64,000 nt of DNA from Streptomyces sp. NBC_01235. GTDB taxonomy: Bacteria; Actinomycetota; Actinomycetes; Streptomycetales; Streptomycetaceae. Shown here piece after piece: positions 4,870 through 26,480 of this stretch (the stretch's first letter is position 1; each line of letters begins with the position of its first letter). The notes beneath the pieces are model-generated. The model was not told where the DNA came from. It did no database searches and saw only the letters and a program-made list of their open reading frames with translations. Location: NCBI RefSeq assembly GCF_035989285.1, contig NZ_CP108513.1:2852001-2916000 (forward strand). Reading direction: 5' to 3'. The position numbers and the translations under genes are program-made.

Positions 4870-4882
4870 CACCGGACCGGCT

Positions 4883-4922
4883 TTCGCCTTCGCCCTTCGC
4901 CCTTCGCCCTTCGCCCTTCGCC
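4883..4922. repeat. TTCGCCC heptamer tandem repeat
   Basis: Four perfect TTCGCCC units are bordered by two TTCGCC units, starting 14 nt after the SDR stop. It has no hairpin symmetry and is probably a slippage-derived microsatellite. Confidence 0.85.
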
Positions 4923-5023
4923 GAACCTCGATCGCGCCGTGGCGTTCCGGGCCGCGGCGCGATCGGGGAGAAGGGCTCCGCTCCGTTGACCACTGCCGAC
5001 CGCGACGTCCGGGGCCTCGGGTG

Positions 5024-5300: not shown

Positions 5301-5383
5301 CCAGCAACCAAGCCGGTGCCTGGGCACTCTCCGCCGAGTGTTGCTGTCGTGCCGCGCCGCGGCACGGTGATCCGGCCCTGAGG

Positions 5384-8178: not shown

Positions 8179-11100
8179 CCCGCGCTCCCCGGACTGCGAT
8201 GACCGAACTTCTTCAGGTCGGCCGAGCGGCTGCCGGCGGGCTGGAGGTCGGCGTACGGGTGCAGCCGGGCGCCGGTGGTGCCGTTGGCCAGGGTCCGCTG
8301 CGGCTGGGCGGGGGTCGGGGACGGACGGTCGGCGCCGAGGAGGGCGAGCGCGGCCTCGGGGCCGTGGTCGCGGCGGGCCGCGGCGATCTCGTCCAGGTCC
8401 CAGGCCATGGTGCCGACGACGGTGCGGCGGGTGCCGCGCACCTGGACCGTGCCGCGCACCAGCAGCAGTCCGCTGTGGAAGACGGTGTGTGCGCACGCCG
8501 GGTGGGAGTCCTCGAAGAACGCCAGGTCGACCAGGCCGGAGCCGTCCTCCAGGGTGACGAAGATGATGCGCCTGCCGCTGGCGATCGGCGGGGTCTGGGT
8601 GGAGGCCCGCACGCCGGCGACGAGGACCTGCTGACCGGCGCGCAGGGCGGCCAGGTGGGCCGCGTCGGTCGCGCCGATCTCGCGCAGCAGCCGGTGGTGG
8701 TGCTCCATCAGGTGCTTGGAGACGTCGATGCCGAGGGTGCTCAGCTCGGCGCTCAGGGCTTCGCGTCCGGTCATCTCCGGCAGACCGCTCGGCTCCGCCC
8801 CGCCGACGGCGCCCGCATCGATGGGCAACTGGCCCTTGCCCGCGGATCGGGTGCGGGAGGCCCGGTGGAGTTCGGCGATCTGCAGAAGCAGGTCGCGTCG
8901 CGTAAGGCGTCCGTCGTGGAGACAGTTCAGGGCGCCGATTTCCGCCAGACGTTCGGCGACCGGCCTGCTGGGACGGGCTCGCTGCCAGAAGTCCGACAGC
9001 GATCCGTACGGCTGGCCCTCCTCGATCCGTGCGCACTCCTCCTCGCTGATGCCGTGCACCGCGGACAGTGCGAGCCGCACGCCCCACTGCTCCCCGTCGG
9101 CCTTCTCCACGGTGTGCTTCACCTGGGAGTGGTTGATGTCGACCGGCAGCACCGGCACGCCACGCCGACGGGCGTCGGAGACGAGAACGCGCTTGGGCCA
9201 CATACCGGGGTCGTGTTCGAGCAGGCCGGCCAGCAGGTACGCCGGGTGATGCGCCTTGAGCCAGGCGCTCTGCAGGGCCGGTACGGCGAAGGCGACCGCG
9301 TGGGCGCGGCAGAAGCCGTAGGCACCGAAGGCCTCGACGGTCTTCCAGACCTCGTCCCGGACGGACGCGCTGTAGCCACGCGCACGTGCCAGGCTGTGGA
9401 ACCAGTCCCTGATCTTCGGCAGCCGGTCCTTCTCACCGAGCGCTCGCCGGGCGATCTCCGCCAGCGCGTAGTCGCAGCCGGTCATCACCGACAGGGTCTC
9501 GATGATCTGCTCGTGCCAGATGGTCACGCCGTAGGTGTCGGCGAGCACCGGTTCCAGGTCCGGATGGGCGTACGACGGCGGGCCGCCATGGCGGGCGGCG
9601 ATGTACCGCTCGGGCATGCCGCCGGCGACCGGGCCGGGGCGGAAGAGGCTGATGTCGGCGATGACGTCCTGCGGGTCGCGAGGCTGAAGCCGGGACAGAA
9701 GATCCTGCTGGCCGGGCGACTCGAGCTGGAAGAGGCCCAGGGTCTGGCTCTCCTGGATGAGCTTGAAGGCGAAGACGTCGTCGAGCGGCACCTGGCGCGG
9801 GTCGTCGAGGTCGATGTGGTCGCCGGTGGTCCGTTCTATCTCGGCGACGGCATGGGCCATCGCGGACTGCATCCGCACTCCCAGGACGTCGAGTTTGATG
9901 TTGCCCAGCGCCTCGATCTCCTCCTTCGCCGCCATCGCCATGGGGTAGTCGCCCTGTGGCGTGGGCTGCACCGGCAGCCGGTCCAGGAGGGTCGCGTCGC
10001 TGATCACCACGCCGCAGGGGTGCATGGCCATGCCGTGGACCAGGGAGTCGAGACCTTCCGCCAGTTCCCACAGCGGTCCGAACCGGGGTGCCTCGGCCGC
10101 CAGTTGCCGCAGTTCGGGCAGCTCGGCAAGGGCGCCGGTGATGTCGGACGCCCGCAAGTGCGGGAAGCTCTTGGCGATCCGGTCGACCTCCGCGGGCGCG
10201 ATACCGAGGGCGAGGCCGGTGTCGCGCAGGGCGCGGCGGGCCCGGTAGGTCTCGGGCATCGCGGTGACCGCCACCCGCTCCTTGCCGAACCGGTCGAAGA
10301 TCGCGTCGTAGCACTCGAGCCGCCTGGCGGATTCCACGTCGATGTCGATGTCGGGCAGCGAGGCCCGGCGCACACTGAGGAAACGTTCGAACAGCAGGCG
10401 GTGGTCGAGCGGGTTGGCCGTGGCGATGCCCAGCGCGTGGCAGACCATCGAGCCGGCGCCCGAGCCGCGGGCCGCGACCCGGATGCCCTTGGCCCGGATG
10501 TCGGCCACGACCTGGCCGACAGCGAGGAAGTACGAGTCGTAGTCCAGCGTGGAAATCACGTGGAGCTCTTCGTCCAGCCGGTCGAGCGCACCTCGGTCGC
10601 GGTCGAGGCCACGTCGGGCCATCCCGGCCTCGCACTGCCGGCGCAACAGGTGTGCCGCTCCGCCCGCTCCGGGTTCGGCGCCGAAGAGCGACGGTTCCGG
10701 AAAGTGCCGGGTGCCGAGTCCGAGGTCCGACACCGGGTCGACGATGCACGCGGCCGCCGTGTCCGCGGTGTCCGTCATCAGGCGGCGTGCGCGCCGGACG
10801 TCCGCTCCGGCGCATTCGGAGATCATCTGCGCGATGACCGTCATCGCCCTTTCGTTCTTGAGCCAGCGCTGCCCGCTGTCCAGGCGGCGCCGGTCGATCG
10901 GTCGCAGCAGTCTCGCGGCGTCCAGGACATCAGCGAGTCGGTGTTGGTCCGGGTCGGCGTAGCGGACGGCGTTGGAGAGCACCGCGGTGGTCTGGGCGCG
11001 GTCGGCCAGCGCCAGTGTCCGGGCAGCCAGCCGAAGCGACCCCGGCCCGACGCTGAAACGTTTCTGCGCAACAGCCTCCAACCGGACTCCGCTCCCGAAG

Positions 11101-11630
11101 ATCTCCCGCCACGGCGCCAGCAGCTTCATCGCGATGTCTTCCCGGCCGGCCGCCAGGGCCCGCACCGGCTCCGAGAGCGGCCCGAGCAGTACGGTCAGGC
11201 CGGGACCGCCGTACTCACGCAGCGCCTCCCACGGCACCACCACCGGTGCCGCGCCGGACGCGGTACCGGCGTGGGCGGCCGAGGTGATACGGCACAGCCG
11301 CGCCCATCCCGCCCGGTCCTGTGCGAGCAGCACGAACCGCAGCGGCGGCTCGACGACGTGCGCGCCACCGCGCGCCGGGGTGCGGCGCCGCTGGGCGGGC
11401 GGCGGAGGCGCCAGGGCCTCCACCGCCAGGTCGACACCGAAAACCGGCCGCACCCCGGCTCCGGCGCACGCCTGCGCGAACCGGACGACACCAGTGACCG
11501 TGTCCCGGTCGGTGAGCGCGAGCACCGTCATGCCCCGCTCGGCCGCCCGCCGGACGAGATGCTCGGGGTGGGCGGCGCCATAGCGGACGGAGTAACCGGA
11601 CGCGACGTGCAGATGGGCGAAGCCCGCCAT
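8175..11630 (-). CDS. dnaE2: error-prone DNA polymerase III alpha subunit DnaE2
   Basis: This is a 1151-residue C-family polymerase. The N-terminal PHP domain reads FAHLHVASGYSVRYG and TVLALTDRDTVTGV. The palm carries VAARGSGAGSMVCHALGI and catalytic LPDIDIDVES, then GLFQLESPGQQDLLSRLQP, FRPGPVAGGMPERYI, an HhH region and a C-terminal OB fold (RRIIFVTLEDGSGLVDLAFF). The length and lack of the replicative C-terminal tail fit DnaE2 rather than the essential DnaE1. It acts in damage-induced translesion synthesis with ImuB. GGAGG lies 6 nt before the ATG, and a LexA-like box lies 52 bp upstream, so SOS induction is likely. It is followed with a 4-nt overlap by the ImuB-like gene. Confidence 0.93.
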   Translation of the reverse strand: MAGFAHLHVASGYSVRYGAAHPEHLVRRAAERGMTVLALTDRDTVTGVVRFAQACAGAGVRPVFGVDLAVEALAPPPPAQRRRTPARGGAHVVEPPLRFVLLAQDRAGWARLCRITSAAHAGTASGAAPVVVPWEALREYGGPGLTVLLGPLSEPVRALAAGREDIAMKLLAPWREIFGSGVRLEAVAQKRFSVGPGSLRLAARTLALADRAQTTAVLSNAVRYADPDQHRLADVLDAARLLRPIDRRRLDSGQRWLKNERAMTVIAQMISECAGADVRRARRLMTDTADTAAACIVDPVSDLGLGTRHFPEPSLFGAEPGAGGAAHLLRRQCEAGMARRGLDRDRGALDRLDEELHVISTLDYDSYFLAVGQVVADIRAKGIRVAARGSGAGSMVCHALGIATANPLDHRLLFERFLSVRRASLPDIDIDVESARRLECYDAIFDRFGKERVAVTAMPETYRARRALRDTGLALGIAPAEVDRIAKSFPHLRASDITGALAELPELRQLAAEAPRFGPLWELAEGLDSLVHGMAMHPCGVVISDATLLDRLPVQPTPQGDYPMAMAAKEEIEALGNIKLDVLGVRMQSAMAHAVAEIERTTGDHIDLDDPRQVPLDDVFAFKLIQESQTLGLFQLESPGQQDLLSRLQPRDPQDVIADISLFRPGPVAGGMPERYIAARHGGPPSYAHPDLEPVLADTYGVTIWHEQIIETLSVMTGCDYALAEIARRALGEKDRLPKIRDWFHSLARARGYSASVRDEVWKTVEAFGAYGFCRAHAVAFAVPALQSAWLKAHHPAYLLAGLLEHDPGMWPKRVLVSDARRRGVPVLPVDINHSQVKHTVEKADGEQWGVRLALSAVHGISEEECARIEEGQPYGSLSDFWQRARPSRPVAERLAEIGALNCLHDGRLTRRDLLLQIAELHRASRTRSAGKGQLPIDAGAVGGAEPSGLPEMTGREALSAELSTLGIDVSKHLMEHHHRLLREIGATDAAHLAALRAGQQVLVAGVRASTQTPPIASGRRIIFVTLEDGSGLVDLAFFEDSHPACAHTVFHSGLLLVRGTVQVRGTRRTVVGTMAWDLDEIAAARRDHGPEAALALLGADRPSPTPAQPQRTLANGTTGARLHPYADLQPAGSRSADLKKFGHRSPGSAG

Positions 11631-12484: not shown

Positions 12485-13567
12485 TCAGCCGATCTGTGTG
12501 CCCGTCGCCGACAGTGCTTCCGTCACCGGCTGGAAGAACGTCTCTCCGCCGGAGGTGCAGTCGCCGCTGCCGCCCGAGGTCAGGCCGACGGCGCTGCTGC
12601 CCGAGAAGAGGGAGCCGCCGCTGTCGCCGGGCTCGGCGCAGACGTCGGTCTGGATGAGGCCGTTGACGATGTCGCCGTTGCCGTAGTTCACCGTGGCGTC
12701 CAGGCCGGTGACCGTGCCCGAGTGGACCTGGGTGGTCGAGCCGCTGCGGGTGACCTTCATGCCGACGGTGGCCTCGGCCGCGCCGGTGATCTGCTGGGCC
12801 GAGCCGTTGTAAAGGTCGACCTCGCTCGGGTGGTCGACGTCGGCGGTGTACTTGACCAGGCCGTAGTCGTTGCCCGGGAAGCTGGAGGTCTCGTTGGTGC
12901 CGATCTCGGTGCCGGAGGAGTCCGACCAGGTGGAGATGGCGTCGGTGCAGTGCCCGGCGGTCAGGAAGTACGGCTCGCCGCCCTTGACCACGTTGAAGCC
13001 GAGCGAGCAGCGCCCGCTGCCGCCGGTGATGGCGTCGCCGCCGGCGATGAAGGGCTTGAACTCCCCCTTGGTGCGCTGGAGTTCGGCCACCTTGCCGAGC
13101 CGGTCGACGACCTTGGTGAGCTTGGCCCACTCGGCGTCGGAGACGGTGCGGTCGGCGGTGACGACGACCTTGTCGGCGGTCGGGTCGGTCACCCAGGCGG
13201 TGCCCGGGATGGTCGCGTCCGCCTTGAGCGTCGCATGGGCGCCGGTCAGTTCGGCGAGGGAGTTCTCGACGATTCTGGCCTTCGCTCCGGCCGCCTCGAC
13301 GGTCTTCGCGGCGACCTCGTCGAGGACGTTCACCACGAGGCTCTTGCTCTTCGCGTCGTAGTACGTGCCCGCCGCGTCGGCACCGAGGTCCTCGCCGAGC
13401 GTCGAGGCGAGCCTTCCGGCCGCGAGGGCCGAGAGGGCGGTGGGCTGCGGGGTCTTCGCGGGCTCGCTGGCGTTCGCGGTCTGGAAGGTGACTCCCGCCG
13501 CGACGAGCGCGGCGACACCCGCCCCCGCCATGACCGCCCGCCGCCTGGATATACGTCGGTGCTTCAA
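12485..13567 (-). CDS. secreted S1-family serine protease with alpha-lytic-type propeptide (streptogrisin-like)
   Basis: From a TTG start (AGGAGG 7 nt upstream) the protein is 360 residues. Its N-terminus [20 protein letters not shown] is a basic, possibly Tat-type signal peptide. A pro-region of about 150 residues follows ([27 protein letters not shown]), as needed for folding of this family. The catalytic domain begins near [19 protein letters not shown]. The triad is His in TAGHC, Asp in PGNDYGLV and Ser in EPGDSGGS. The tail [15 protein letters not shown] is typical of streptogrisins, which digest extracellular protein in mycelium. No in-frame ATG fits a signal peptide better. Substrate preference was not determined. 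Confidence 0.9.
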
Positions 13568-14083: not shown

Positions 14084-15658
14084 GTGACGCGAGAGGCGAC
14101 AACTTCCCGAGTGAGGCAGACCGCGACGCGCGTGCCCGACGGCACCGCCGAACGCCTCGCCGGTCTGGAGAGCCGTCGGGCCCGGGCCGCGGCTCCGGGC
14201 GGGCCGCGACGGCGCGGGGAGCACGGCGCCCGCGAGCGGATCGACCTGCTGCTGGACGCGGGCTCGTTCACCGAGACCGGCCTGTTCGTCCGGGGCCGGC
14301 CCACCGGGGACGGCGCCCGTCGACCGTACGGCGACGGCGTGATCACCGGTTACGGCACCGTCGACGGGCGTCCGGTCTGTGTGTTCTCCCAGGACTCCAC
14401 GGTCTTCGGCGGCAGCATGGGCGAGGCGTTCGGTGAGAAGACGATCGCCCTGATGGACCTCGCCCTGAAGACCGGCTGCCCGGTCGTGGGGCTCAACGAC
14501 GGCGGCGGCGCCCGCATCCAGGAGGGCGTCGCCTCGCTCGCCCTCTACGCCGAGCTGGTGCGCCGCAACGTCAAGGCGTCCGGCGTGATCCCGCAGATCT
14601 CGGTCGTCCTGGGGCCGTGCGCCGGCGGAGCCGCGTACTCGCCGGCCATCACCGACTTCACCGTGATGGTGGACGGCGCCTCGCACATGTTCGTCACCGG
14701 ACCCGACGTCATCGAGGCGGTCACCGGCGAACGCACCGGCGCCGAGGAGCTGGGCGGCGCCCGCACCAGCAACACCGTCAACGGCAACGCCCACTTCCTC
14801 GCCGCCGACGAGGTGGACGCCCTCGACACCGTACGCGACCTGCTGTCGTACCTGCCCGCCAACAACCTGGAGCGGCCCCCGCAGTACGCGCCGGCGGCCG
14901 CGGGCGTCGGCGCGCGGCTCGACGAGGTCGTCCCGGACCGGCTCGCGCAGGCCTACGACATGCGGGACATCCTGCGGGCGGTCGTCGACAACGGCGAACT
15001 GCTGGAGATCCAGGAGCTGTTCGCACCCAACATCATCTGTGCGCTGGCCCTCGTCGAGGGCGCGCCCGTCGGGGTCGTCGCCAACCAGCCGCTGCACGCC
15101 GCCGGGGTCCTCGACATAGACGCCTCCGAGAAGGCCGCGCGCTTCGTGCGGTTCTGCGACGCGTTCGGCATCCCGCTGCTGACCTTCGCCGACGTCCCCG
15201 GCTATCTCTCCGGGGTCCGTCAGGAGCAGGCCGGGATCATCCGGCGCGGCGCCAAACTGCTGTACGCCTACGCCGAGGCGACCGTTCCGAAGGTCACCGT
15301 GGTGGTGCGCAAGGCCTACGGCGGCGGGTACGCGGTGATGGGCTCCAAGCATCTGGGCGCCGACATCAACCTCGCCTGGCCCACGGCCCGGATCGCGGTC
15401 ATGGGCGCCGAGGGCGCCGTCGGCGTCCTGCACCGGCGCGAACTCGCCGCCGCCGACGACCCGGAGGCGTTGCGCGCCCGCCTCGTCGCCGCGTACGAGA
15501 GCACGTACGGCACCCCCTATCCCGCCGCCGAGCGCGGATACGTCGACGCCGTCATCGCCCCGAGCGACACCCGCGCCCAGGTCTGCCGTGCCCTGCGGGC
15601 GCTGCGCGGCAAACGCGCCCCGATGCCGGAACGCCGGCACGGCAACATCCCCCTCTGA
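14084..15658 (+). CDS. acyl-CoA carboxylase beta (carboxyltransferase) subunit, AccD/PccB-like
   Basis: This 524-residue carboxyltransferase transfers CO2 from carboxybiotin to acyl-CoA. Signatures: LNDGGGARIQEGVASL, GPCAGGAAYSPAITDFTVMV, HMFVTGPDVIEAVTGE, DVPGYLSGVRQEQAGIIRRGAKLLYAYAEATVPKV. The conserved AYGGAYD segment reads AYGGGYAVMGSK, with Ala417 where PccB-type enzymes usually have Asp, a position I recall as affecting acyl-chain choice. The GTG at 14084 is chosen for GGAGGT 4 nt before it. It needs a biotin-carrying alpha subunit encoded elsewhere. As first gene of the cassette it probably supplies the carboxyacyl-CoA extender for the Pks13-like synthase, the role AccD4 has in mycobacteria. 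Confidence 0.92.
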   Translation: MTREATTSRVRQTATRVPDGTAERLAGLESRRARAAAPGGPRRRGEHGARERIDLLLDAGSFTETGLFVRGRPTGDGARRPYGDGVITGYGTVDGRPVCVFSQDSTVFGGSMGEAFGEKTIALMDLALKTGCPVVGLNDGGGARIQEGVASLALYAELVRRNVKASGVIPQISVVLGPCAGGAAYSPAITDFTVMVDGASHMFVTGPDVIEAVTGERTGAEELGGARTSNTVNGNAHFLAADEVDALDTVRDLLSYLPANNLERPPQYAPAAAGVGARLDEVVPDRLAQAYDMRDILRAVVDNGELLEIQELFAPNIICALALVEGAPVGVVANQPLHAAGVLDIDASEKAARFVRFCDAFGIPLLTFADVPGYLSGVRQEQAGIIRRGAKLLYAYAEATVPKVTVVVRKAYGGGYAVMGSKHLGADINLAWPTARIAVMGAEGAVGVLHRRELAAADDPEALRARLVAAYESTYGTPYPAAERGYVDAVIAPSDTRAQVCRALRALRGKRAPMPERRHGNIPL

Positions 15659-15676
15659 CCCCGCCCCTCCCCGCCC

Positions 15677-15708
15677 CACACACCTGCCCGCCCCCACACA
15701 CCTGCCCG
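15677..15708. repeat. 14-bp direct repeat in the accD-FAAL spacer
   Basis: CACACACCTGCCCG occurs at 15677-15690 and 15695-15708. A second pair, CCGTCCCGCG-TTGTGA / CCGTCCCGCG-ATGTGA, follows. The spacer is 93 bp with no hairpin terminator, so read-through into the ligase gene is likely. Confidence 0.75.
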
Positions 15709-15751
15709 TCCCGCGTTGTGACCCGTCCCGCGATGTGAGGAGCCGTCTCCG

Positions 15752-17521
15752 ATGGACACCCCCCGCCCCCCGCTCGCGCCCGTGCACCGGAACCTGCCGG
15801 AGTACGTGCGGCACTGGGCCGAGACCGCCCCCGACCGCCGGGCGTTCACCTTCGTCGACCATCCCGCTCCGCACGTGCGGGGCGTCCACCGCACCCTGAC
15901 CTGGCGCCGCCTGGACCTGCGCGTACGGGCTCTGGCCGCCCGCCTCGCCGAGGAGGCCGCGCCCGGAGCGCGGGTCGCGCTGCTGTGCCCGCAGGGCAGC
16001 GAGTACGTCACCGCGTTCCTCGCGACGCTCGCCGCCGGGCTGGTCGCCGTGCCGCTGTATCCGCCCGGTCTGCCCGGGCACGGCGACCGTCTCTCCGCTG
16101 TTCTCGCCGACGCGCGTCCGGCCGCCGTCGTGACGACGAGCCGCGCCCTCGACGAGGTGCGGGAGTTCTGCGCGGGCGCCGCGATGACGATCGCCGCCGC
16201 CGACCAGGTGCCCGACGCCGCCGCCGAGGACTGGCGGCCGGTCGTGCCGGACGACACCGCGGTCGCCTACCTCCAGTACACCTCCGGTTCGACCCGCACC
16301 CCGGCGGGCGTGGAGATCACCCACGCCAACGTCGTCGCCAACGCCCGTCAGGCACTGACCGCCTACGGTGCCGACGACCGTCCCATCACGTGTGTGGGCT
16401 GGTTGCCGCTGTACCACGACATGGGGCTCGTGCTGAGTGTCGCCGCACCGGTGACGCGGGGTCTGCTGTCGGTGCTCATGGACCCGGTCGCGTTCCTGCA
16501 CGAGCCCGTGCGCTGGCTGCGGCTGCTCGCCGCGCATCCGCGCGCGGTGAGCGCCGCGCCCAACTTCGCCTACGACTACTGCGCCTCGGCCGTGACCGGC
16601 GCGCAGAAGGAGGGCCTGCGGCTGGACGGTGTCGCCGCGCTGATCAACGGCAGCGAGCCCGTCCGCCCCGGCACGGCCGACGCCTTCCACGCCGCCTTCG
16701 CCGCCCAGGGACTCGCACCGGACACCCACTGTCCGTCGTACGGGCTCGCCGAAGCCACCGTGTTCGTCAGTGCCGCCCGGCCCTGGGAGCCGTTGCGCCG
16801 GTTCGCGCTCGACCGCGACGCCCTGGCCACCGGGAAGGCCCTGCCCGCCCGGCCCGACGATGCCACGGCCGTGCTGCTCGCGGGCTGCGGTACCCCGGCC
16901 GGCCAGCAGGTCCGCATCGCCGATCCCGTGTCCCGCGCCGCGTTGTCCGAGGGGGAGGTGGGTGAGATCTGGGTGCGGGGCCCCAACGTCGGGCGCGGCT
17001 ACCGGAACCAGGACCGGCTGACGGAGCGCGTCTTCGGTGCCGCGTTCGCCGACGCGGCCGGCGACACGGCGGACGACGCGCACGGCTCGGGCGGCTGGCT
17101 GCGCACCGGTGACCTCGGGACGGTCCTGGACGGCCAGTTGATCGTCACCGGCCGGCTGAAGGACCTCATCGTCGTCGACGGCCGCAACCACTATCCGCAG
17201 GACGTGGAGGCGACGGTCCAGGAGGCGCATCCGGCCGTGCGGCGCGACCGGCTCGCCGCCTTCGCCGTGGCGGGACCCGAGGGTGAACGCGTGGCCGTCG
17301 TGGCGGAGCACGTACGGAGCACGGGCCTCGCCGGGATCGACGTACCGGCGCTGGTGCGCGCGGTACGGGCGGCCGTGTCCGCCCGGCACGGGCTGCGGCT
17401 CGCCGACGTCGTCCTCGTGGAGCCGGGCACCGTGCCCCGTACGTCCAGCGGCAAGGTGTCGCGGTCGCTGACCCGCGAGCGGTATCTGGCGGGCGCCTAT
17501 GCGGCGGGGACGGCCGAATGA
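15752..17521 (+). CDS. FadD32-like fatty acyl-AMP ligase
   Basis: This 589-residue ANL-superfamily enzyme has the FAAL rather than CoA-ligase character: AYLQYTSGSTRTPAGVEITH (P-loop, nearly the FadD32 wording), CVGWLPLYHDMGLVLS, YGLAEATVFVS, and GRLKDLIVVDGRNHYPQDVE with RTSSGKVSR (catalytic Lys) at the end. FAALs activate a fatty acid as acyl-adenylate and load it onto a carrier protein. Its stop overlaps the synthase start by ATGA (17518-17521), so the partner is most likely the N-terminal ACP of that synthase. GAGGAG precedes the ATG. The chain length accepted is unknown. Confidence 0.93.
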   Translation: MDTPRPPLAPVHRNLPEYVRHWAETAPDRRAFTFVDHPAPHVRGVHRTLTWRRLDLRVRALAARLAEEAAPGARVALLCPQGSEYVTAFLATLAAGLVAVPLYPPGLPGHGDRLSAVLADARPAAVVTTSRALDEVREFCAGAAMTIAAADQVPDAAAEDWRPVVPDDTAVAYLQYTSGSTRTPAGVEITHANVVANARQALTAYGADDRPITCVGWLPLYHDMGLVLSVAAPVTRGLLSVLMDPVAFLHEPVRWLRLLAAHPRAVSAAPNFAYDYCASAVTGAQKEGLRLDGVAALINGSEPVRPGTADAFHAAFAAQGLAPDTHCPSYGLAEATVFVSAARPWEPLRRFALDRDALATGKALPARPDDATAVLLAGCGTPAGQQVRIADPVSRAALSEGEVGEIWVRGPNVGRGYRNQDRLTERVFGAAFADAAGDTADDAHGSGGWLRTGDLGTVLDGQLIVTGRLKDLIVVDGRNHYPQDVEATVQEAHPAVRRDRLAAFAVAGPEGERVAVVAEHVRSTGLAGIDVPALVRAVRAAVSARHGLRLADVVLVEPGTVPRTSSGKVSRSLTRERYLAGAYAAGTAE

Positions 17522-20500
17522 GCGCCGTCGACGAAGGAGCGCTGCGCCGGCTGATCGCCGGACGGGTGGCCTCCTGGAACGGCACGCCTGCGGCGGACGT
17601 CCCCATGGACCGGCCGCTGGCGGACCTCGGCATGTCCTCGCGGGACGCGGTGGTCCTGGCCGGGGAGCTCTCCGGGGCCACGGGTCGTGAGCTGCCCGCG
17701 ACACTGCTGTGGGAGGCGTCCACCGGCGACGCCCTGGTGGCGCACCTGTGCGCCGGCACGGCGACACAGGCCGATCCCCCGGCCGTGCTCCCGGCCGTTC
17801 CGGGGCTGCCCGGTGAGCCCGTCGCGGTCATCGGGGTCGGCTGCCGACTGCCGGGGGGTGTGCACGGTCCAGGCGACTACTGGCGGCTGCTGAGCGAGGG
17901 CGTCGACGCGATCCGGCGGGTTCCGCAGGACCGGTGGCGTGACTTCACCGCCTTCCCTCCCGCCGACGCTCCCCTGTACGGCGGCTACCTCGACGACATC
18001 GCCGGGTTCGACGCGGACTTCTTCCGGATCACACCGCGCGAGGCCGCGGTGATGGACCCGCAGCAGCGGATCCTGCTGGAGGTCGTCCACGAGACCCTCG
18101 ACCACGCGGCCGTCCCCGCCGCGTCCCTCGCCGGCACCGCCACCGGCGTCTTCGTCGGCGTCTCCGCCCCGGAGTACGGCGCTCTGACCGGCGCGGACCC
18201 CGCCGCCGTCGACCCCTGGGCGCCGGCCGGCGGGGCGTTGAGCGTGACCGCGGGGCGGCTGGCGTACGTGCTGGACACGCGGGGGCCGAGCATGGCCGTC
18301 GACACCGCCTGTTCGTCCTCGCTGGTCGCCGTGCACCACGCCTGCGTCAGTCTGCGCACGGGCGAGGTCGACACGGCGATCGCCGCCGGCGTCAACGTGC
18401 TGCTCTCCCCCGCAGTCACCGTCGCGTTCCGGCGAGCCGGTGCCCTCGCCCCGGACGGACGGTGCAAGCCGTTCTCCGCGGCGGCCGACGGCATCGGGCG
18501 CGGCGAGGGCTGCGCGGCCGTGCTGCTGAAGCGGGTGTCCGACGCCGAGCGGGACGGCGACCGCGTCCTCGCCGTCGTCCGGGCCACGGCCGTCAACTCC
18601 GACGGCCGCTCGGGCGGGCTCCTGGCACCCAACCCGGCGGCCCAGCGAGCCCTGTTGACCACGGCCTACGCGCGGGCCGGGCTCGATCCGGCGCACATCG
18701 ACCTCGTCGAGGCGCACGGCACCGGTACCCCGCTCGGCGACCCGATCGAGGCGGGCGCCCTCGGCGCCGTGCTCGGTGCGGGCCGCGACGCCGACCAGCC
18801 GCTGCTCCTCGGCTCCGTCAAGGGCAACCTCGGCCACCTGGAGTCCGCCGCGGGCATCGCCGGGCTGGTGAAGACGGTGCTCGCGCTGCACCACGACCGC
18901 GTTCCGCCGTCCCTGCACTGCGCGGAGGGCAGCGCCCTGGACGACATACGGCTGCGGGTGGTGAGCGAGCCGGAGCCGTGGCCGCGCTACGGCGGCACGG
19001 CCACCGCCGGGGTCTCCGGATTCGGCTTCGGCGGCACCAACGCCCATGCGGTGCTGGAGGAATGGCGACCGGGCGGCCCGCCGCCCCAGGCTCCGGCCGA
19101 GGAGCCGGCCGCCCGTCTCCATCTCCTCTCCGACCTCGACACCGCACGCGTCCGGGACACCGCGGCCCGGCTGGCCGAGTGGCTCCGTACGCCCGAGGGG
19201 AGTGCCGCGCGCCCCGCAGACGTGGCGCGCACGCTCGCGGGGCGGGCCGGGCGCGGCCGCGTGCGGGCCGCCGTCGCCGCCCGCGACCGTCACGAACTCG
19301 CCGACGCCCTGGCCGCGTTGGCGCAGGGGCGGCCCCACCCCCAGGTCGTCACCGACGACCGCGGGCTCGCCGGGCGGGGGCCGGTGTGGGTCTTCTCGGG
19401 GTACGGCAGCCAGTGGGCCGGCATGGGGCGTCGTCTGCTGGCCGAGGAGCCCGTCTTCGCCGCGGCAGTGGAGAAGCTCGACGCCCAGCTGGCCCCGGAG
19501 TGCGGTCTGTCCTTGTACGACTGTCTGGCCTGCGGTGCGGCCCTCGATCGCGTGGAGGTCGCCCAACCAGTGCTGTTCGGCACTCAGTTGGCGCTCGCCG
19601 AGCTGTGGCGCGCCCAGGGGGTCGAGCCCGCCGCCGTCATCGGGCACTCGCTGGGCGAAGTGGCCGCCGCGGTGTGCGCGGGCGCGCTGGACGTGTCGGA
19701 CGCGGCCCGGGTCGTCGCCGTACGGGCCCGGCTGCTCGGCGGGCTGCGCGGCGGCGCCATGGCTGTGGTCGACCTCGAGGACGATGAACTCGACGCTCTG
19801 GAACGGGAGTTCCCCGACGTCCAGGTCGCCGTCCACTCCTCGCCCGTCCAGAAGGTCGTCACCGGCGAGGAGCCGGCGGTCGCCCGGCTGGTGCGAAGGC
19901 TGGAGCGGCAGGGGCGGGCCGCCCGCGCCATGCGGGTCGTCGGCGCCGGGCACTCGCCCCAGGTCGACCCGCTTCTGCCGGAGTTGACCGAGGCCCTGGC
20001 CGAGGTCCGGGGCGGACGGCCGCGCGTCCCGGTGTACTCCACCGTCCTGGACGACCCGCGTGGCGACGGGGTGTTCGACGCCGCCCACTGGGCCGCGAAC
20101 CTGCGCCGGCCCGTGCGCCTGGACCGGGCCGTCGCGGCCGCCGCGGCCGACGGCCACACCGCCTTCGTCGAGATCTCACCCCACCCGGTCCTGACCCGGG
20201 CCGTCACCGACACCGCGCCCGGCTCCCTCGTCCTCGGCACGCTGCGCCGCGACGCCGACGACCGCACCGCGTTCCTCACGCGGGTGGGTGCCCTGTACGC
20301 CGCCGGCGGACGCCTGCCGCTGCCGTCCGGCCGTGTCATCGACCTGCCGGCACCGCGCTGGCGGCACGGGCGGCACTGGTGGACGGACGGGCGTCCGACG
20401 GCCGTGGCGGTCCCGGCGTCCGTACCGGCGGCGGTTCCGGCGGCGGTTCCGGCGGCGGTTCCGGCGGCGGTTCCGGCCGGGGAGGGGGAGACGCCGCAGG

Positions 20501-21555
20501 ACGTCTCCGCCTTCGCCCGCCTGCGTCACGCCATCACCGCGGTCACCGGCCACCCGGCGGCCCGCATCCTGCCCACCACGACCCTGGCCGACCTCGGCCT
20601 GGACTCCCTGATGGCCGTCCGCATCCGCACCGCCCTCGAACGCGAGTTCGGGATCGAACTGCCCCTGCGCGAACTGCTCGGCGCCGGCACCGTCGGGAAG
20701 GTGGCCGATCACATCCGACGGGCGCTCGCCCCAAGGGAGGCGGACTCGCCCTTGCGACCCCTGCGCGCCGGCGGTTCGCGGGCCCCGCTCTTCCTCCTGC
20801 ACGCCGCCGGCGGCACGACCGACGTCTACGGGGCGCTCACCGGACGGCTCGGGGACGACCGGCCGGTGTACGGGCTGGAGCGAATCGAAGAGGCCCGGAC
20901 GGTGACCGCGAAGGCGCGCCGCTACGCCGAGGCGATCACCGCCGTCCATCCCGACGGCCCTTGCCTGCTGGGCGGTTGGTCCTTCGGCGGGTTCGTCGCC
21001 CAGGAGACCGCACGGCAACTCACCGCCGCCGGACGGGACGTGGAGCTGGTCGTGCTCCTCGACTCCGTACGGCCCCTCCCCCGGCCCGGCGTGACACCGG
21101 CCGACCGGATCCGCGCCCACTTCAGGGGCTTCGCACAGCACGTCGCCGACGCCTACGGGGTCCGGCTGGAGCTGCCGTACGACGAGCTCGTCGCGATGGA
21201 CGACGACGGCGACCGTATCGACGCCGTGCTGCGGGCCCTGCGCGAGGCAGCCGACGTGCCGGCCGCCGCCCTGGAGCACCAGCGGACGTCCTACCTGGAC
21301 CTCAGGATCGGCGAGGCCCATCGACCGGGGCCCTACGACGGGCGGGTGGTCCTGTACCGGGCCACCGGGCCCGCTCCGCACACCGTGCGCGACCCCGCCT
21401 ACGAACGGGACGACGAGGCGCTGGGCTGGGACGAGGTGTGCCCGTGCCTGACGGTCGTCCGGGTCGCGGGCCACCATCTGTCGCTGCTCGACCCACCGCA
21501 CGTCGACGAGATCGCCGCCCATCTGCGGCACGCGCTCGCCGAGCAGAGCCGCTGA
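17518..21555 (+). CDS. Pks13-like condensing synthase (ACP-KS-AT-ACP-TE)
   Basis: This 1345-residue single-module type I synthase has the Pks13 domain order. The N-terminal ACP (residues about 1-85) has [16 protein letters not shown], Ser41, very like the Pks13 N-ACP. KS spans about 98-520 with Cys265 (DTACSSS), His400 (EAHGTG) and His440 (NLGHLES). AT (about 620-930) has Ser711 (GHSLGE). A VPAA-repeat linker is followed by the C-terminal ACP (Ser1030, [10 protein letters not shown]) and a thioesterase with Ser1155 (GWSFGG) and His1320 (GHHLSLLD). [14 protein letters not shown] and [11 protein letters not shown] in the TE also echo Pks13. There are no KR, DH or ER domains. Predicted reaction: FAAL-loaded acyl on N-ACP is condensed with a carboxyacyl chain on C-ACP, giving an alpha-alkyl beta-keto ester released by TE onto an acceptor alcohol or water. 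The acceptor is unknown (trehalose in mycobacteria). Confidence 0.93.
20431..20478. repeat. 12-bp in-frame repeat encoding the VPAA linker
   Basis: Four copies of GCGGTTCCGGCG (the last with one change) encode alternating Ala-Val-Pro-Ala between the AT and C-terminal ACP domains. It is a flexible linker prone to copy-number change. Confidence 0.85.
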
Positions 21556-21576
21556 ACCGTACGACGAGGAGCCGCC

Positions 21577-22515
21577 ATGTCCCACCCCACCACCGGAGTG
21601 TCCCGACGGGCCGTCACCAAAGCCGCGGCGGCCGTCGGTCTGACCGCGCTGTTCGGCGCCCGGACCGCCCCGGCCCGGGCCTCGACCCGGCTCGGACCAC
21701 GCACCCTGGACGTCACCGTGTCCTCCGCCGCACTCGGCCGCAGCGCACCGGTACGGCTGATCCTGCCGTCGGACTTCGACACCCGGCCCGGGCGGACCTA
21801 TCCCGTCCTGTACCTGCTGCACGGCGCCCACGACGACTACACCTCCTGGACCCGGGAGACGGACATCGAGGCCTTCACCGAGGGCCGGGAGCTGATCGTG
21901 GCGATCCCGGACGCGGGCCCCACCGGCATCCCCACCGCCTGGCGCGGCGGTCCCGACTACGAGACCTTCCAGCTCCAGGAGATCCCGGCACTGCTCGCCC
22001 GGGACTACCGGGCGTCCGGCGTGCGGGCCGTCGCCGGGGTCTCCACCGGCGGCTACGGCGCGATGGCGCACGCGGCACGCCACCCGGGCATGTTCGCCGC
22101 GGCCGCCTCCTACAGCGGCATCCTCGACACCACGGCGCCGGGCGTGCCGCCGATCGTGGACGCCATCGTCGCCCGCGAGAACCTGCTGCCCCACTCCCTC
22201 TGGGGCAACCCGGTGCTGAACCTCCTCACCTGGCGCGACTTCAACCCCCGCGCACGGGCCGCCGGGCTGCGCGGCACCGGCCTGTACGTCTCCAGCGGCA
22301 GCGGTGTGGCCGGCGGGACCGGTGACTGGCTGCCCGAGGCCCTGGAGAGCGCCCTGTGGCCCTCCGCCCACGGGTTCACCGACACGCTCGCGCTGCTCGG
22401 CATCCCGGTCACCACCCACTACTACACGGGAGGAGGACACAGCTGGACCTACTGGAAGCGGGAGTTCACCGCGTCGTGGCCGATGCTCGCCCGTGCGCTG
22501 GGGGTGCCGGAGTGA
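21577..22515 (+). CDS. antigen-85/esterase-D-family exported acyltransferase or esterase
   Basis: This 312-residue protein has a twin-arginine signal (VSRRAVTKAAAAVGLTAL ... APARA). The hydrolase domain resembles mycobacterial Ag85 mycolyltransferases: LYLLHGAHDDYTSW, nucleophile GVSTGGYGAM (Ser156) and C-terminal GGGHSWTYW (His288, matching the GTHSWEYW block). Ag85 proteins move mycoloyl groups between trehalose and wall arabinan; relatives hydrolyse simple esters. It starts 21 bp after the synthase stop with GAGGAG before the ATG, so it is part of the operon and probably handles the exported synthase product. Transferase versus esterase activity cannot be decided from sequence. Confidence 0.88.
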   Translation: MSHPTTGVSRRAVTKAAAAVGLTALFGARTAPARASTRLGPRTLDVTVSSAALGRSAPVRLILPSDFDTRPGRTYPVLYLLHGAHDDYTSWTRETDIEAFTEGRELIVAIPDAGPTGIPTAWRGGPDYETFQLQEIPALLARDYRASGVRAVAGVSTGGYGAMAHAARHPGMFAAAASYSGILDTTAPGVPPIVDAIVARENLLPHSLWGNPVLNLLTWRDFNPRARAAGLRGTGLYVSSGSGVAGGTGDWLPEALESALWPSAHGFTDTLALLGIPVTTHYYTGGGHSWTYWKREFTASWPMLARALGVPE

Positions 22516-22637
22516 TGTCGGTGCCGTCGGGGCACGGAACGGAGCGCAGGGGACGTCCGTCCAACACGGGACAGTCCCCTCGCCCCACGGGCAACGGCCC
22601 GCGGGTGAGCCGCTTCCGGGTGAAAGGAGGGTCCGCC

Positions 22638-23867
22638 GTGGCTTCCCCCACCCCGCACGAGGTGCCGGACGAGCTCGGAGCCGCACCGGTGCCGCCGGGT
22701 CTGGCCGAGCTGCTGCGCGCCGAACTCGAGGCCGTCGCCGACGACGTGGAGGAGGAAGTCCGCAGACAGGTCCCCGAGTACGCGCGGCCGGCCGACGGCG
22801 CGTACGGCAAGAACCTCAGGTCCGCAGTGGTGCAGGCGCTGACCCTGTTCGTCGACCACATCGCTGACCCGCGCCGGCAGGCCGGCTCGATCGCCGCCAC
22901 GTACTACGAGCTCGGGCGCGGCGAGGCGCTGGAGGGCCGCAGCCTGGACGCGCTGCAGTCGGCGCTGCGGATCGGCGGGCTGCACGCCTGGCGGCGGCTG
23001 GGCCGTACGGCGGAGGAGCTCGGGCTGGACTCCACGGTCGTGGCCGCGCTGGGCGAACTGAGCATGCGGACGGTCCACGAGGTCGCGGAGGCGGCCGCGG
23101 CCGGGTACGCGGAGGCCCAGCTGCGCAGTACGGACGAGCTGGAGCGCCGCCGCAGGCGCCTGCTCGACCTGCTCCTGGAGGAGGGGCCGGTGTCCCTGGA
23201 GGCCGTACAGGGGATGGCGCACGGCGCTCGCTGGTCGGTGCCGCGGCACGTCGCGGTCGTCGCGCTCGCGGCGACCCCGGAACAGCGGGAGGAGGACCGG
23301 CCGCTCGCCGCGGCCGGGGCGTTGGTGGACATGGAGTCCCGGCCGCCCCGGATGCTGGTGCCCGACCCGGACGGTTCGGGCCGCTTCGGCGGGCGGGCGT
23401 TCGCCCTCGCGCTGCGCGGCCGTCCGGCGGCGGTCGGCCCGACGGTGCCGCTCACCGAGGCCGCCCAGTCGCTGCGCTGGGCCACCCGGGCCCTGGGGCT
23501 GATGGGCCGCGGGGTGCTTCCCGGGCAGGGCGTGGTGCGGTGCGCCGACCATCTGTCGACCCTGCTGCTGCACGGCGACGAGCCGCTGCTCGCCCGGTTG
23601 GAGGCACGGGTCCTCGCGCCGCTCGACGCCGTCTCCGAGGGGCAGCGCCCCCGGCTCGCCGAGACGCTGCTGGCCTGGCTGCTCTGCGGCAGCAACGTGC
23701 CCGACGTCGCCACCCGGCTGCACGTCCACCCACAGACGGTCCGCTACCGCCTGCGCCAGCTGGAGAAGCTGTTCGGCGACGTGCTGCACGACCCCGGCAC
23801 CCGGCTGGACCTCATCCTGGCGCTGCGCGCCGAGGAACTGCGGGGCCTGAGCGACTGTGCCACGTGA
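22638..23867 (+). CDS. PucR/CdaR-type transcriptional regulator
   Basis: From a GTG with AAAGGAGGG 7 nt upstream it is 409 residues. The N-terminal half is helical (LRAELEAVADDVEEEVRRQVPEY, SLDALQSALRIGG). The C-terminus has the PucR helix-turn-helix: LAETLLAWLLCGSNVPDVATRLHVHPQTVRYRLRQLEKLFGDVL. Such regulators act as activators or repressors of metabolic operons. It sits between the Ag85-like and cutinase genes on the same strand, with a 122-bp gap before it, and is the likely cluster-situated regulator. Confidence 0.85.
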   Translation: MASPTPHEVPDELGAAPVPPGLAELLRAELEAVADDVEEEVRRQVPEYARPADGAYGKNLRSAVVQALTLFVDHIADPRRQAGSIAATYYELGRGEALEGRSLDALQSALRIGGLHAWRRLGRTAEELGLDSTVVAALGELSMRTVHEVAEAAAAGYAEAQLRSTDELERRRRRLLDLLLEEGPVSLEAVQGMAHGARWSVPRHVAVVALAATPEQREEDRPLAAAGALVDMESRPPRMLVPDPDGSGRFGGRAFALALRGRPAAVGPTVPLTEAAQSLRWATRALGLMGRGVLPGQGVVRCADHLSTLLLHGDEPLLARLEARVLAPLDAVSEGQRPRLAETLLAWLLCGSNVPDVATRLHVHPQTVRYRLRQLEKLFGDVLHDPGTRLDLILALRAEELRGLSDCAT

Positions 23868-24031
23868 GGTAATTCCCCGCTCACTCCGGTGCGCACATCG
23901 GGGCTCACGTCGGCAACAAAAAGCCGGGAGTTTCTGAATTCCCGTCCATAACACCCCGCCGGTGAATGCCAATACGTTCGGGACGTCCTTTTCCCAGGCG
24001 CGTCATCGCGCCCCACCCGCAAAGGATCCCC

Positions 24032-24673
24032 ATGCGTATGCGCTTGTGCCTCGCCGTGCTCTCGCTGCTCGGCGGGGCCGGAATGGCCACCCTCACGGCG
24101 CCCACGGCATCCGCCGCCGCCTGCTCGGACATCGACGTCGTGGCAGCCCGTGGCACCTTCGAACCGGGCACGCTCGGCCTGATCGTCGGCGACCCGGTGT
24201 ATTCGGCCCTGCAGAAGAAACTGGCGGGCAAGAGCCTCTCCAGCTACAAGGTGAACTACCCCGCGGACCTTTCTCTCACGTCGGCCGCGCAGGGCAACGC
24301 GGATCTGGTGAACCACGTCAACAGCCAGGCGGCCGCCTGCCCGAATCAGCGATTCGTCCTCGTCGGCTATTCGCAGGGCGCGAACGTCGTCGACAACTCC
24401 ATCGGCATCAGCAGCGCCGGCGCGGTGGTCGGCAGCCCCATCGTCGCCACCATCCCCGCCGCTCTCGAACCGAGGGTCGCCGCGGTGCTGCTGTTCGGCA
24501 ACCCGATCCGGGCCCTCGGCAAGAACGTCACCGGCACCTACCAGAGCCGCACCATCGACTTCTGCGCCCAGGGCGACCCCATCTGCGAGAACGGCGGCGA
24601 CGACGTGCTGGCGCACCTCGGCTACACCGCGAACGCCGACGCGGCGGCCGTCTTCGCCGCGGGCAAGGTCTGA
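24032..24673 (+). CDS. secreted cutinase-family serine esterase
   Basis: This 213-residue protein has a signal peptide of about 29 residues (ends ASAAA). Cutinase signatures: CSDIDVVAARGTFEPG, nucleophile LVGYSQGANV (Ser114), CAQGDPIC (Asp182) and HLGY (His195). Cysteines fit the family disulfides. Cutinases hydrolyse cutin, triacylglycerols or phospholipids; the mycobacterial homologue Rv3802c lies in the mycolate locus and acts as a lipase/thioesterase. AAAGGA lies before the ATG. As the last gene of the cassette, followed by a strong hairpin, it may remodel the lipid product or the envelope. It could also be a plain plant-polymer cutinase. Confidence 0.92.
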   Translation: MRMRLCLAVLSLLGGAGMATLTAPTASAAACSDIDVVAARGTFEPGTLGLIVGDPVYSALQKKLAGKSLSSYKVNYPADLSLTSAAQGNADLVNHVNSQAAACPNQRFVLVGYSQGANVVDNSIGISSAGAVVGSPIVATIPAALEPRVAAVLLFGNPIRALGKNVTGTYQSRTIDFCAQGDPICENGGDDVLAHLGYTANADAAAVFAAGKV

Positions 24674-24690
24674 GCCGCCACCCCACGCTG

Positions 24691-24722
24691 AAGGGCCCGG
24701 GAGGAGCTCCTCCCGGGCCCTT
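24691..24722. terminator. bidirectional terminator, cutinase / alpha-beta hydrolase
   Basis: AAGGGCCCGGGAGGAG is followed directly by its exact reverse complement, a perfect 32-bp palindrome between two convergent genes, with a pyrimidine run after it. It marks the end of the Pks13-like operon. Confidence 0.9.
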
Positions 24723-24749
24723 CTTCCGTGCGGGTGCGGCCGGCGCCGG

Positions 24750-26480
24750 CTACCGGGGATCCCGTGCGAACTCCGTGAGGCCGGCCGAGACGGGCTCGGG
24801 CCGGCCGTTGTTCTGCACCGGCGCGGCGGTCAGCACGTCGAGGTGCTGGTAGCCGTCGGCGACGATCGGGTGCAGGTCGGCCGGGATGCGGCCGGCCAGC
24901 AGCCCGTCGCCCGCGAGCACGGTGAGCGTCGGGTTGGCGGTGAGCCCCTCCGGGTGCGCGACGAGCCGCTTCACCTGCGGCGAGTCGGCCAGTTCGAGAT
25001 CGGTGACGAGCTTGGTCGGGAAGTACTGCTCGGTGAAGTCCAGCGGCTGCTCGGCGAGGCTGCGGGCCAGCTCCCGAAGGTCGGTGACCTCCTTGTCGGC
25101 GGCGGTGAACGGGGTGCCGTCGGCGGACCGGTACCCCGGGTCGTCGGGGTCGCCGACGCGGTCGTAGTCGCGCCAGGTGTACAGCGGCCCGTGCGGCCGG
25201 TCCGGGATGGCCTTGTACGCGACGCCGAACAGCCCGGGCTGCCGGTCACCGCCGTTGGCGACGGGGAAGCTCTTGTCGGCGACCGGCCCGCCGTCGAAGA
25301 AGCCGACGCTGCTCTGCAGGAACGCCAGCGGTACGGAGTTGTCGTCCAGCAGCGCTCCGAGCACCGCCGCGTTGGTGAGCCGGAAGTCCTTCACCGCGGG
25401 TGAGCCGGTGAGGAAGGCGGCGGTGTCCTTGGAGAACAGGAACCGGTTGGTCGCCTCGATGTTGGTGGTGGAGGGGAGATAGGCCGGCAGGTCGGCCTCG
25501 CCGCCCGGATCCCGTACGGCGCCCACGCCGGCGATGGCCAGCAGCGTCATGGTCTCGGGGTTGAGCAGGACCGGCGCGGACAGCGAGCGCGACAGCAATC
25601 CGCTGTCGAGCCCGGCCTGGACGACACCGTAACCGAGGCCGATGTCGGGCAGGTTGGTGTCGTCCGGGATGCTGCCGCTGAGGTCGGCGAGCGAGGTGGA
25701 GACGGTGGTGTCGAGGGCGAAGTAGCCGGCGCACTGGTTGTAACCGGCGTCGGCGGTGGTGGCCCGGTCGCCGTCGAAGTCGGCTGCCGCGAAGTAGCCG
25801 GTGACGACCCCGCCGAGCGAGTGGCCGCCGCACAGCACCTTCCGCTTGCGCACGCCCTGGTCGGGCAACTCTGCGGCGAGCAGGTCGTACTGGTCGCGGA
25901 CGGTCTGCTCGATGCCGAGCTTCGCCATCCACCCCAGGCGCTCGTTGCCGACGAAGCCGGCGAAGGTGCGCCCGTCGACCTGCCTGCCCCGGTAGTAGTA
26001 GTCGACGGCCGTGTGCTGGTCGCCGGAGTCGGTGCCGGTGTGGTCCTCCAGACAGTTGGAGCGCCGGTCCAGGGCCCAGAACTCGATGTGCCGGCCCTGC
26101 TCGGCGGCGCGTGCCACGGTGTTGCGGGCGACGCCGTCGAACGCTCCGGCTCCCTCCAGGATGCCCGGCTGGGCGAGAAGGATCCGGTCCGCGTCGGCCG
26201 AGGCCGCGGGGCCGTCGGCGGAGCGGTAGCGCAGGTACGACAGCCAGTCGCACGCCGCCGGACGCGCCCCGAAGGAGGCCGGCAACGGCGCCTTCACCCG
26301 CACCACCGACTCCGTCACCCCGGCGACCGGACCCGTCGACGCCACGGGCGTCTCGGTCCTCCCGGTCTCCCCCTGGGCGCTCGGGGCGGCGGCGGTGAGG
26401 GTCCCGGTGGCCAGCAGCACCGCCAGCACGGCGCTGCGCAGGGCTTTCGCGGTTCTTCCTCTGCTGCGACTCGTGTTCAT
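24750..26480 (-). CDS. large secreted alpha/beta hydrolase of unknown substrate
   Basis: From the ATG at 26480 the protein is 576 residues with a signal peptide (SRSRGRTAKALRSAVLAVLLATG ... AAAPSAQG in two parts). The nucleophile elbow is LCGGHSLGGVVTGYF. The other triad members are likely Asp and His in the C-terminal half (TVLAGDGLLAG, DGYQHLDVL). It contains many DPGY/ADGTPF loops and no cell-wall anchor. It faces the cutinase gene across a shared terminator and adds a third exported ester-hydrolase-like protein to the neighbourhood. I do not recognise a characterised family member, so calling it a lipase would be a guess. The ribosome binding site is weak. Confidence 0.75.
   Translation of the reverse strand: MNTSRSRGRTAKALRSAVLAVLLATGTLTAAAPSAQGETGRTETPVASTGPVAGVTESVVRVKAPLPASFGARPAACDWLSYLRYRSADGPAASADADRILLAQPGILEGAGAFDGVARNTVARAAEQGRHIEFWALDRRSNCLEDHTGTDSGDQHTAVDYYYRGRQVDGRTFAGFVGNERLGWMAKLGIEQTVRDQYDLLAAELPDQGVRKRKVLCGGHSLGGVVTGYFAAADFDGDRATTADAGYNQCAGYFALDTTVSTSLADLSGSIPDDTNLPDIGLGYGVVQAGLDSGLLSRSLSAPVLLNPETMTLLAIAGVGAVRDPGGEADLPAYLPSTTNIEATNRFLFSKDTAAFLTGSPAVKDFRLTNAAVLGALLDDNSVPLAFLQSSVGFFDGGPVADKSFPVANGGDRQPGLFGVAYKAIPDRPHGPLYTWRDYDRVGDPDDPGYRSADGTPFTAADKEVTDLRELARSLAEQPLDFTEQYFPTKLVTDLELADSPQVKRLVAHPEGLTANPTLTVLAGDGLLAGRIPADLHPIVADGYQHLDVLTAAPVQNNGRPEPVSAGLTEFARDPR

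Follow-up and report, generated by a model that had tools for sequence, protein, structure and literature searches.

Textbooks treat mycolic acids as a marker of the Mycobacteriales, and Streptomyces is, to our knowledge, classed as mycolate-free. In the mycolate locus of M. tuberculosis, the genes Rv3799c–Rv3804c encode AccD4, Pks13, FadD32, the cutinase Rv3802, Ag85D and Ag85A, and this cluster is conserved across mycobacteria, corynebacteria, nocardia and rhodococci (PMC2625445). A Corynebacterium locus in our comparison (L101) carries genes for an LGFP-repeat esterase, a small protein of the DUF732 type, a cutinase, a fatty acyl-AMP ligase (FAAL), a Pks13-type synthase and AccD. Here we describe a cassette of the same five families (AccD, FAAL, polyketide synthase (PKS), Ag85 and cutinase) in Streptomyces sp. 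NBC_01235, whose 11.09-Mb genome forms a single contig; the window, i.e., the whole stretch analysed, comprises 64,000 nucleotides (bases 2,852,001–2,916,000). As a preliminary description of this DNA had claimed, positions 14084–24673 of the window hold six co-directional genes, all on the plus strand (open reading frame list and domain searches; Table 1), and the ligase and synthase genes are coupled, the stop codon of the former and the start codon of the latter sharing the four bases ATGA (17518–17521). Mycolate-style condensation followed by extracellular transfer fits the predicted anatomy of these genes better than the rival explanations considered below.

The synthase has the domain order ACP-KS-AT-ACP-TE (acyl carrier protein, ketosynthase, acyltransferase, acyl carrier protein, thioesterase) with intact active sites, i.e., the five-domain order of Pks13, including the N-terminal ACP and the TE, that the preliminary description had read from the sequence. 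The N-terminal ACP, KS, AT and TE can all be aligned with Pks13. Among the readable rows of the window and 75 cassette loci, the KS residues Cys265, His400 and His440 are kept in 75/75, the AT residues Ser711 and Arg736 in 74/74, and the TE residues Ser1155, Asp1182 and His1320 in 69/69, 68/69 and 68/68, respectively. Arg736 aligns with an arginine present in 5/5 Corynebacteriales Pks13, which we take to be the carboxylate-binding Arg826 of Pks13, a role that Arg736 would share by analogy. The AT motif GAGH, kept in 73/73 rows, is also found in 5/5 Corynebacteriales Pks13, and the solved Pks13 chain 9f48 has GASH; elsewhere, YASH marks methylmalonyl and HAFH malonyl specificity (PMC6164871).

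The best NCBIfam family for the synthase is Pks13 (NF040607, 1192.8 bits; best non-Pks13 family, 984.8 bits), and its best PDB relative is again Pks13 (857.9 bits), followed by MAS (657.3 bits) and modules of the erythromycin synthase (near 617 bits). Best-segment identity to the Corynebacteriales loci is 40–42%. In a KS tree of 37 rows (12 of the 76 cassette rows, five Corynebacteriales Pks13, the PKS of a second locus in the same genome, and 19 other PKS KSs of that genome), drawn without mycobacterial iterative PKSs, the cassette, the second PKS and Pks13 are split from all other rows by a branch supported at 98/92. A place among ordinary modular PKSs had been named beforehand as the result that would speak against the assignment; the tree returns the KS with Pks13, apart from the 19 others, and an ordinary modular PKS is disfavoured both by this tree and by the best-family scores in NCBIfam and PDB.

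The ligase contains an AMP-binding domain and a DIP2-like C-terminal domain, and its best models are FAALs, enzymes that use free fatty acids. Its sequence includes YTSGSTRTPAGV. Of its PDB matches, the top two chains carry the name Acyl-CoA synthase (419 bits) and are presumably FadD32 orthologues, and the next two are FadD32 (392 and 391 bits).

The carboxyltransferase AccD is 65% identical to PccB of its own genome and scores 706 bits against a PccB structure. In its acyl pocket lie Val159, Gly415 and Ala417, where PccB has Phe in place of Val159 and Asp in place of Ala417. The top PDB match of AccD is 3IBB, which is the D422A mutant of PccB, and replacement of Asp422 by Ala permits longer chains such as butyryl-CoA (PMC5187497). 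According to the same report, Phe161 is universal in carboxylases known for substrates of at most four carbons, and MccB naturally has Ala at the Asp422 position and Gly161. Among cassette rows, Val occupies the Phe161 position in 74/74 and Ala the Asp422 position in 73/73 readable rows; both residues are smaller than those of PccB, as in an AccD4-type pocket. At the first position the five AccD4 rows carry Ala or Ser, and at the second, Ala. In the four other carboxyltransferases found in the same genome (E 1e-20), the first position is Phe and the second is Asp, Ile, Tyr and Tyr. Like the cassette AccD, MccB of the stambomycin pathway is close to PccB and yet altered at the same two chain-length positions; it differs in feeding a modular PKS and in having Gly where the cassette AccD has Val (PMC5187497). 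The AccD tree is suggestive only of a grouping of cassette AccD with AccD4 (support 93/93, where 95/80 is taken as firm). From the residues at the two positions, which are the strongest evidence, we infer that the second chain would be longer than propionyl; the Val is larger than the corresponding residues of MccB and the AccD4s (Gly, and Ala or Ser), and does not fix the length beyond propionyl.

The Ag85-like protein begins with a twin-arginine-like stretch, SRRAVTK (read by eye), and carries Ser156, Glu257 and His288. By sequence, its top PDB match is PS1, a corynebacterial mycoloyltransferase (136 bits, versus at most 77 bits for esterases), and by fold, ranks 1–7 in Foldseek are all corynebacterial mycoloyltransferases, the best being mycoloyltransferases A (PS1) and C of C. 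glutamicum, at an identity of about one third or less. PS1 leads by sequence and fold together; Cmt1 and Ag85 score no higher by sequence than esterases, and ferulic acid esterases, with sequence scores like that of Cmt1, are among the near folds. The Ser-Glu-His of corynebacterial mycoloyltransferases is aligned in the cassette protein, within a CE1 fold, and we take the Glu to correspond to the catalytic acid of Ag85 (E228), consistent with the entry title of 4qdz. Unlike the enzyme adjoining Corynebacterium pks13, which has C-terminal LGFP repeats, the 312-residue cassette protein is without them. In the Ag85-like tree, the cassette group has support 87/76, and two paralogues of the same genome take no resolved position, one of them on a long branch. 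We note that a third Ag85-like paralogue (genome positions 2,261,461–2,262,300; L111 / L120) is 38% identical and keeps the Ser and His motifs.

The cutinase scores 139.5 bits against PF01083 (cut-off 25.9) and is the single match to that family in its genome (E 0.001); it does not reach the Culp6/Rv3802c family NF050160 (25 bits, cut-off 570). Convergent with it stands a seventh gene, which the six-gene account of the preliminary description, otherwise confirmed, had overlooked. Its product has a signal-peptide-like start (by eye) and the serine-hydrolase motif GHSLGG; its counterparts in 22 aligned loci are 81–91% identical to the window copy. No Pfam family lies above its cut-off and the PDB sequence search gave no name; some database names are alpha/beta hydrolase and fungal-lipase-like. 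Its AlphaFold model (mean predicted local distance difference test score, 37.6) was not used.

Searching a single genome for each species gave 122 synthase relatives, of which the best 80 loci were kept: 75 of cassette type (74 titled Streptomyces, and one 'Actinobacteria bacterium OV320') and five from Corynebacteriales (four Corynebacterium and one Mycobacteriaceae metagenome-assembled genome). The search for the same gene set in other genomes, as proposed beforehand, finds all six genes in identical order and strand in 61/61 cassette loci that are long enough on both sides, which rules out chance adjacency. Taken singly, accD and FAAL are each present in 72/72 readable cassette loci, the Ag85-like, PucR and cutinase genes each in 63/63, and the seventh gene in 58/62. 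Other neighbour families, as counted with a simple purpose-written gene caller, each reach at most 14 of 76 loci, the window being one of the 76. Because the six genes stay together while other neighbours vary, the data suggest that the block is inherited as one unit.

Across 150 evenly drawn Streptomyces genomes, that of the window counted, the cassette Ag85-like gene is found in 17, and in 17/17 of these a strong cutinase match (131–145 bits) lies on the same strand, 1.5–1.7 kb downstream. Cutinase matches without the cassette Ag85 occur in two of the 150 genomes, G109 (146 bits) and G089 (94 bits); the remaining matches, at most 71 bits, were not counted as strong. The stand-alone cutinase of G109 (L130, 12479–13108, plus strand) is 44% identical, with no other cassette gene in the surrounding 18 kb. 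A search of 72,556 plasmid records (E 1e-200) gave no plasmid-borne copy. The cassette is accessory, not core, in Streptomyces, and its distribution is patchy.

One member of this cassette family leads to a studied enzyme. Over their gene-matching parts, both published sub1 primers fit the cassette cutinase gene of S. scabiei 87.22 (L042), the forward primer exactly and the reverse primer with one mismatch, which falls in the stop codon. Since the sub1 primer sites are present in it, the S. scabiei cassette cutinase is, as read from the sequence, the suberinase Sub1, and the window cutinase is by homology the counterpart of S. scabiei Sub1. We take the locus tag SCAB_78931 to be sub1. This tag has been given for an extracellular cutinase gene (PMC3388780), and because it falls within the tag range of BGC#27a (SCAB_78881-79041), a cryptic type 1 PKS cluster of S. 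scabiei 87-22 without a similar known cluster (PMC8914351), the S. scabiei cassette region appears from the locus tags to be BGC#27a. In the expression table of that report BGC#27a is represented by SCAB_78961, with no response to cello-oligosaccharides; from tag spacing, SCAB_78961 would be the cassette synthase. The sub1 cloning primers were designed on strain EF-35 (PMC7104285). Substrates of Sub1 are p-nitrophenyl esters, cutin, suberin and polyethylene terephthalate (PET), and the enzyme is induced by suberin (PMC7104285, PMC5158115); its standing as an essential pathogenicity factor has been doubted (PMC7104285). Work on Sub1 has treated it as a hydrolase of plant polymers, and its setting in a PKS cassette goes unmentioned in the available parts of these texts. 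A report on the suberin secretome (PMC4098958) mentions no further cassette protein in the 12 of 28 places available.

Compared with the mycolate locus of Mycobacterium and Corynebacterium, the cassette shares the ACP-KS-AT-ACP-TE synthase, the KS clade, small AccD pocket residues and an aligned Ser-Glu-His. It differs in gene order, in the length of its synthase (1345 residues, versus 1733 for Pks13 9f48), in having a PucR regulator and the seventh hydrolase-like gene, and in being accessory; its cutinase is distantly alike to that of the Corynebacterium locus (21% over 113 residues). Two curated equivalog cut-offs limit the assignment: the synthase falls short of that for Pks13 (NF040607, 2100 bits), and the ligase, at 509.5 bits, of that for FadD32 (NF038339, 975 bits). 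Because these cut-offs are missed, the cassette is, by such sequence models, a relative of the Pks13/FadD32 systems and not a member. The likeness to the mycolate locus put forward in the preliminary description stands for the KS clade, the AccD pocket and the PS1 match, and its FadD32-type label stands for the presence of the sequence given above, but neither extends to membership of the curated families.

A second locus of the same genome (genome positions 4,828,592–4,837,153) encodes a related FAAL and a 2241-residue synthase with the order ACP-KS-AT-DH(N)-KR-ACP-TE, near an EryCIII-like glycosyltransferase gene and an Ag85-like gene (43%). In the tree, no KS stands closer to the cassette KSs than that of this synthase. 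The pairing of a FAAL-PKS with an Ag85-like protein recurs at this locus, there with a built-in ketoreductase and probably with glycosylation, and the locus may make a glycosylated β-hydroxy lipid. A glucolipsin-type glycolipid synthesis was considered for it and not adopted.

We lean, with somewhat better than even confidence, towards a cassette that makes an α-alkyl β-keto fatty acyl ester, or a reduced form of it, which is predicted to be exported and moved to an extracellular acceptor. By homology, the FAAL would turn a free fatty acid into an acyl-AMP and then charge the N-terminal ACP, while AccD with a housekeeping biotin subunit would carboxylate a second acyl-CoA, longer than propionyl. 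The AT would put the carboxyacyl unit onto the C-terminal ACP, the KS would couple both chains by Claisen condensation, and the TE would release the product or, by analogy with Pks13, transfer it to a polyol such as trehalose. Reduction of the β-keto group might be carried out by a reductase encoded elsewhere. Transfer can also proceed without it: M. smegmatis lacking the reductase continues to attach β-oxo mycolates as esters to trehalose and to the wall (PMC2568869), so a block without a reductase is not fatal to the proposal. After export by a putative carrier, the Ag85-like protein, a predicted substrate of twin-arginine translocation, would hand the acyl group on to its acceptor; the cutinase, perhaps together with the seventh hydrolase-like protein, would trim or recycle the ester, with PucR as the likely local regulator.

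Several of the same genes could also belong to a unit for the use of suberin and cutin, in which a Sub1-type cutinase and the seventh protein free long hydroxy and dicarboxylic fatty acids that the FAAL activates directly, the synthase turns them into a lipid for storage or for the surface, and the Ag85-like protein acts as an esterase of plant material. The suberin-induced, polymer-hydrolysing activity of Sub1, the use of free fatty acids by FAALs and the ferulic acid esterases near the Ag85-like fold agree with such salvage. We nevertheless regard it as unlikely: such a unit has no obvious role for an AccD with long-chain pocket residues, the Ag85-like protein has PS1 as its best sequence match, ahead of the esterases, and a stand-alone Streptomyces cutinase occurs without the cassette (in G109). 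Mycolate bacteria are not known as users of plant polyester. Yet a cutinase-family gene lies beside the synthase in their loci too (PMC2625445, and the Corynebacterium locus above). The reverse relation is that Sub1 may originally serve the cassette lipid, because the S. scabiei cassette cutinase is Sub1. Extended further, some Streptomyces would use a complete cassette, acquired or ancient, to make a mycolate-type lipid that is secreted or sits at the surface, Sub1 would have evolved as its turnover enzyme, and attack on plant polymers would be secondary, a scenario that we hold to be possible, if doubtful.

The product might instead leave the cell as a diffusible bioactive metabolite, i.e., a single β-keto lipid, a decarboxylated ketone or a cyclised compound, with the hydrolases as tailoring or self-protection enzymes and without attachment to the envelope. 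Free β-keto acids do decarboxylate to ketones (PMC2568869), the distribution is patchy, the regulator is local, the S. scabiei region seems to be the one recorded as a cryptic type 1 PKS cluster (PMC8914351), and the second locus, with its glycosyltransferase, resembles glycolipid metabolite synthesis. However, conservation of three predicted secreted hydrolase-like proteins (63/63, 63/63 and 58/62 loci) is unusual for a simple metabolite cluster, and the neighbour comparison shows the block to be without a dedicated efflux pump, which leaves this explanation somewhat improbable. A narrower departure from our proposal concerns only the second substrate: AccD, overall most identical to PccB, would yield methylmalonyl-CoA, and the product would be the ester of an α-methyl β-keto (or hydroxy) fatty acid. 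This version appears quite unlikely, given that both chain-length residues are altered in every readable cassette, that the top structural match is the D422A mutant of PccB (PMC5187497), and that the AT has GAGH, not the methylmalonyl motif YASH.

Table 1. Features of the cassette and of the related second locus (window positions unless stated otherwise)
Feature	Position	Strand	Evidence or remark
accD, acyl-CoA carboxylase β-subunit (carboxyltransferase), 524 aa	14084–15658	+	PF01039, 608 bits
Fatty acyl-AMP ligase (FAAL), 589 aa	15752–17521	+	Domain, NCBIfam and PDB searches
Pks13-type condensing synthase, 1345 aa, ACP-KS-AT-ACP-TE	17518–21555	+	Domain searches, Pks13 alignment, KS tree
N-terminal ACP, Ser41 kept in 74/74 readable rows	17542–17757	+	Pks13 alignment
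Ketosynthase domain, C265/H400/H440	17815–19062	+	Domain search, KS tree, residue count
Acyltransferase domain, S711, R736, GAGH 809–812	19384–20292	+	Domain search, Pks13 alignment
C-terminal ACP, S1030	20518–20715	+	Domain search, residue count
Thioesterase domain, Pks13 TE homologue, S1155/D1182/H1320	20785–21528	+	Domain search, Pks13 alignment
Ag85/mycoloyltransferase-type protein, 312 aa, predicted secreted	21577–22515	+	PDB sequence and fold matches
PucR-type regulator	22605–23867 (likely start near 22605, uncertain; longest open reading frame from 22356)	+	PF13556
Cutinase, predicted secreted	24032–24673 (longest open reading frame from 23966)	+	PF01083, 139.5 bits; start inferred from the S. 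scabiei cassette cutinase protein
Hairpin, 15-bp stem	24690–24723		In the gap where the cutinase and hydrolase-like genes converge
Seventh cassette gene, hydrolase-like, predicted secreted	24750–26429	-	Conservation, GHSLGG motif
Second FAAL-PKS locus with glycosyltransferase and Ag85-like gene	genome 4,828,592–4,841,153; L119 2592–9317, L023 2411–8153	-	

The strong terminator that the preliminary description had placed at the end of the six genes corresponds to a stable hairpin (-39.4 kcal/mol when folded together with flanking sequence; z -6.46), but one that has no T run and received no call there in a consensus scan for terminators. The statement that the window holds neither a β-keto reductase nor an MmpL-type exporter is correct for the latter, with 24 stretches matching MMPL proteins in the whole genome and none inside the window, but passes over a short-chain dehydrogenase gene (4168–4869, plus strand), which lies upstream with a TetR regulator gene on the minus strand (together 4168–6079). 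The dehydrogenase is not conserved alongside the cassette in the neighbour comparison, and is a possible reductase candidate unlinked to it. Directly upstream of the cassette, a gene for an alpha-lytic-type secreted serine protease (12485–13531, minus strand) is likewise not a conserved neighbour. At 7198–11630 (minus strand), a DNA polymerase III alpha-type gene (8175–11630) adjoins a Y-family (impB/mucB/samB) polymerase-type gene (7198–8178).

The claim that the system is undescribed has to be narrowed, as its cutinase is Sub1 in S. scabiei and the region there appears from the locus tags to be the cryptic BGC#27a; within the literature searched, which lay outside subscription papers and preprints, no text describes the cassette as mycolate-type or joins the facts on Sub1 and BGC#27a. 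If the cassette works as proposed, mycolate-style chemistry would be separable from the mycomembrane, and its presence in about one Streptomyces genome in nine could show how such chemistry arose. It would offer a tractable and harmless system for Pks13, AccD4 and Ag85, which are tuberculosis drug targets, and Sub1 would gain a context in lipid metabolism, altering how its induction and natural substrate need to be tested.

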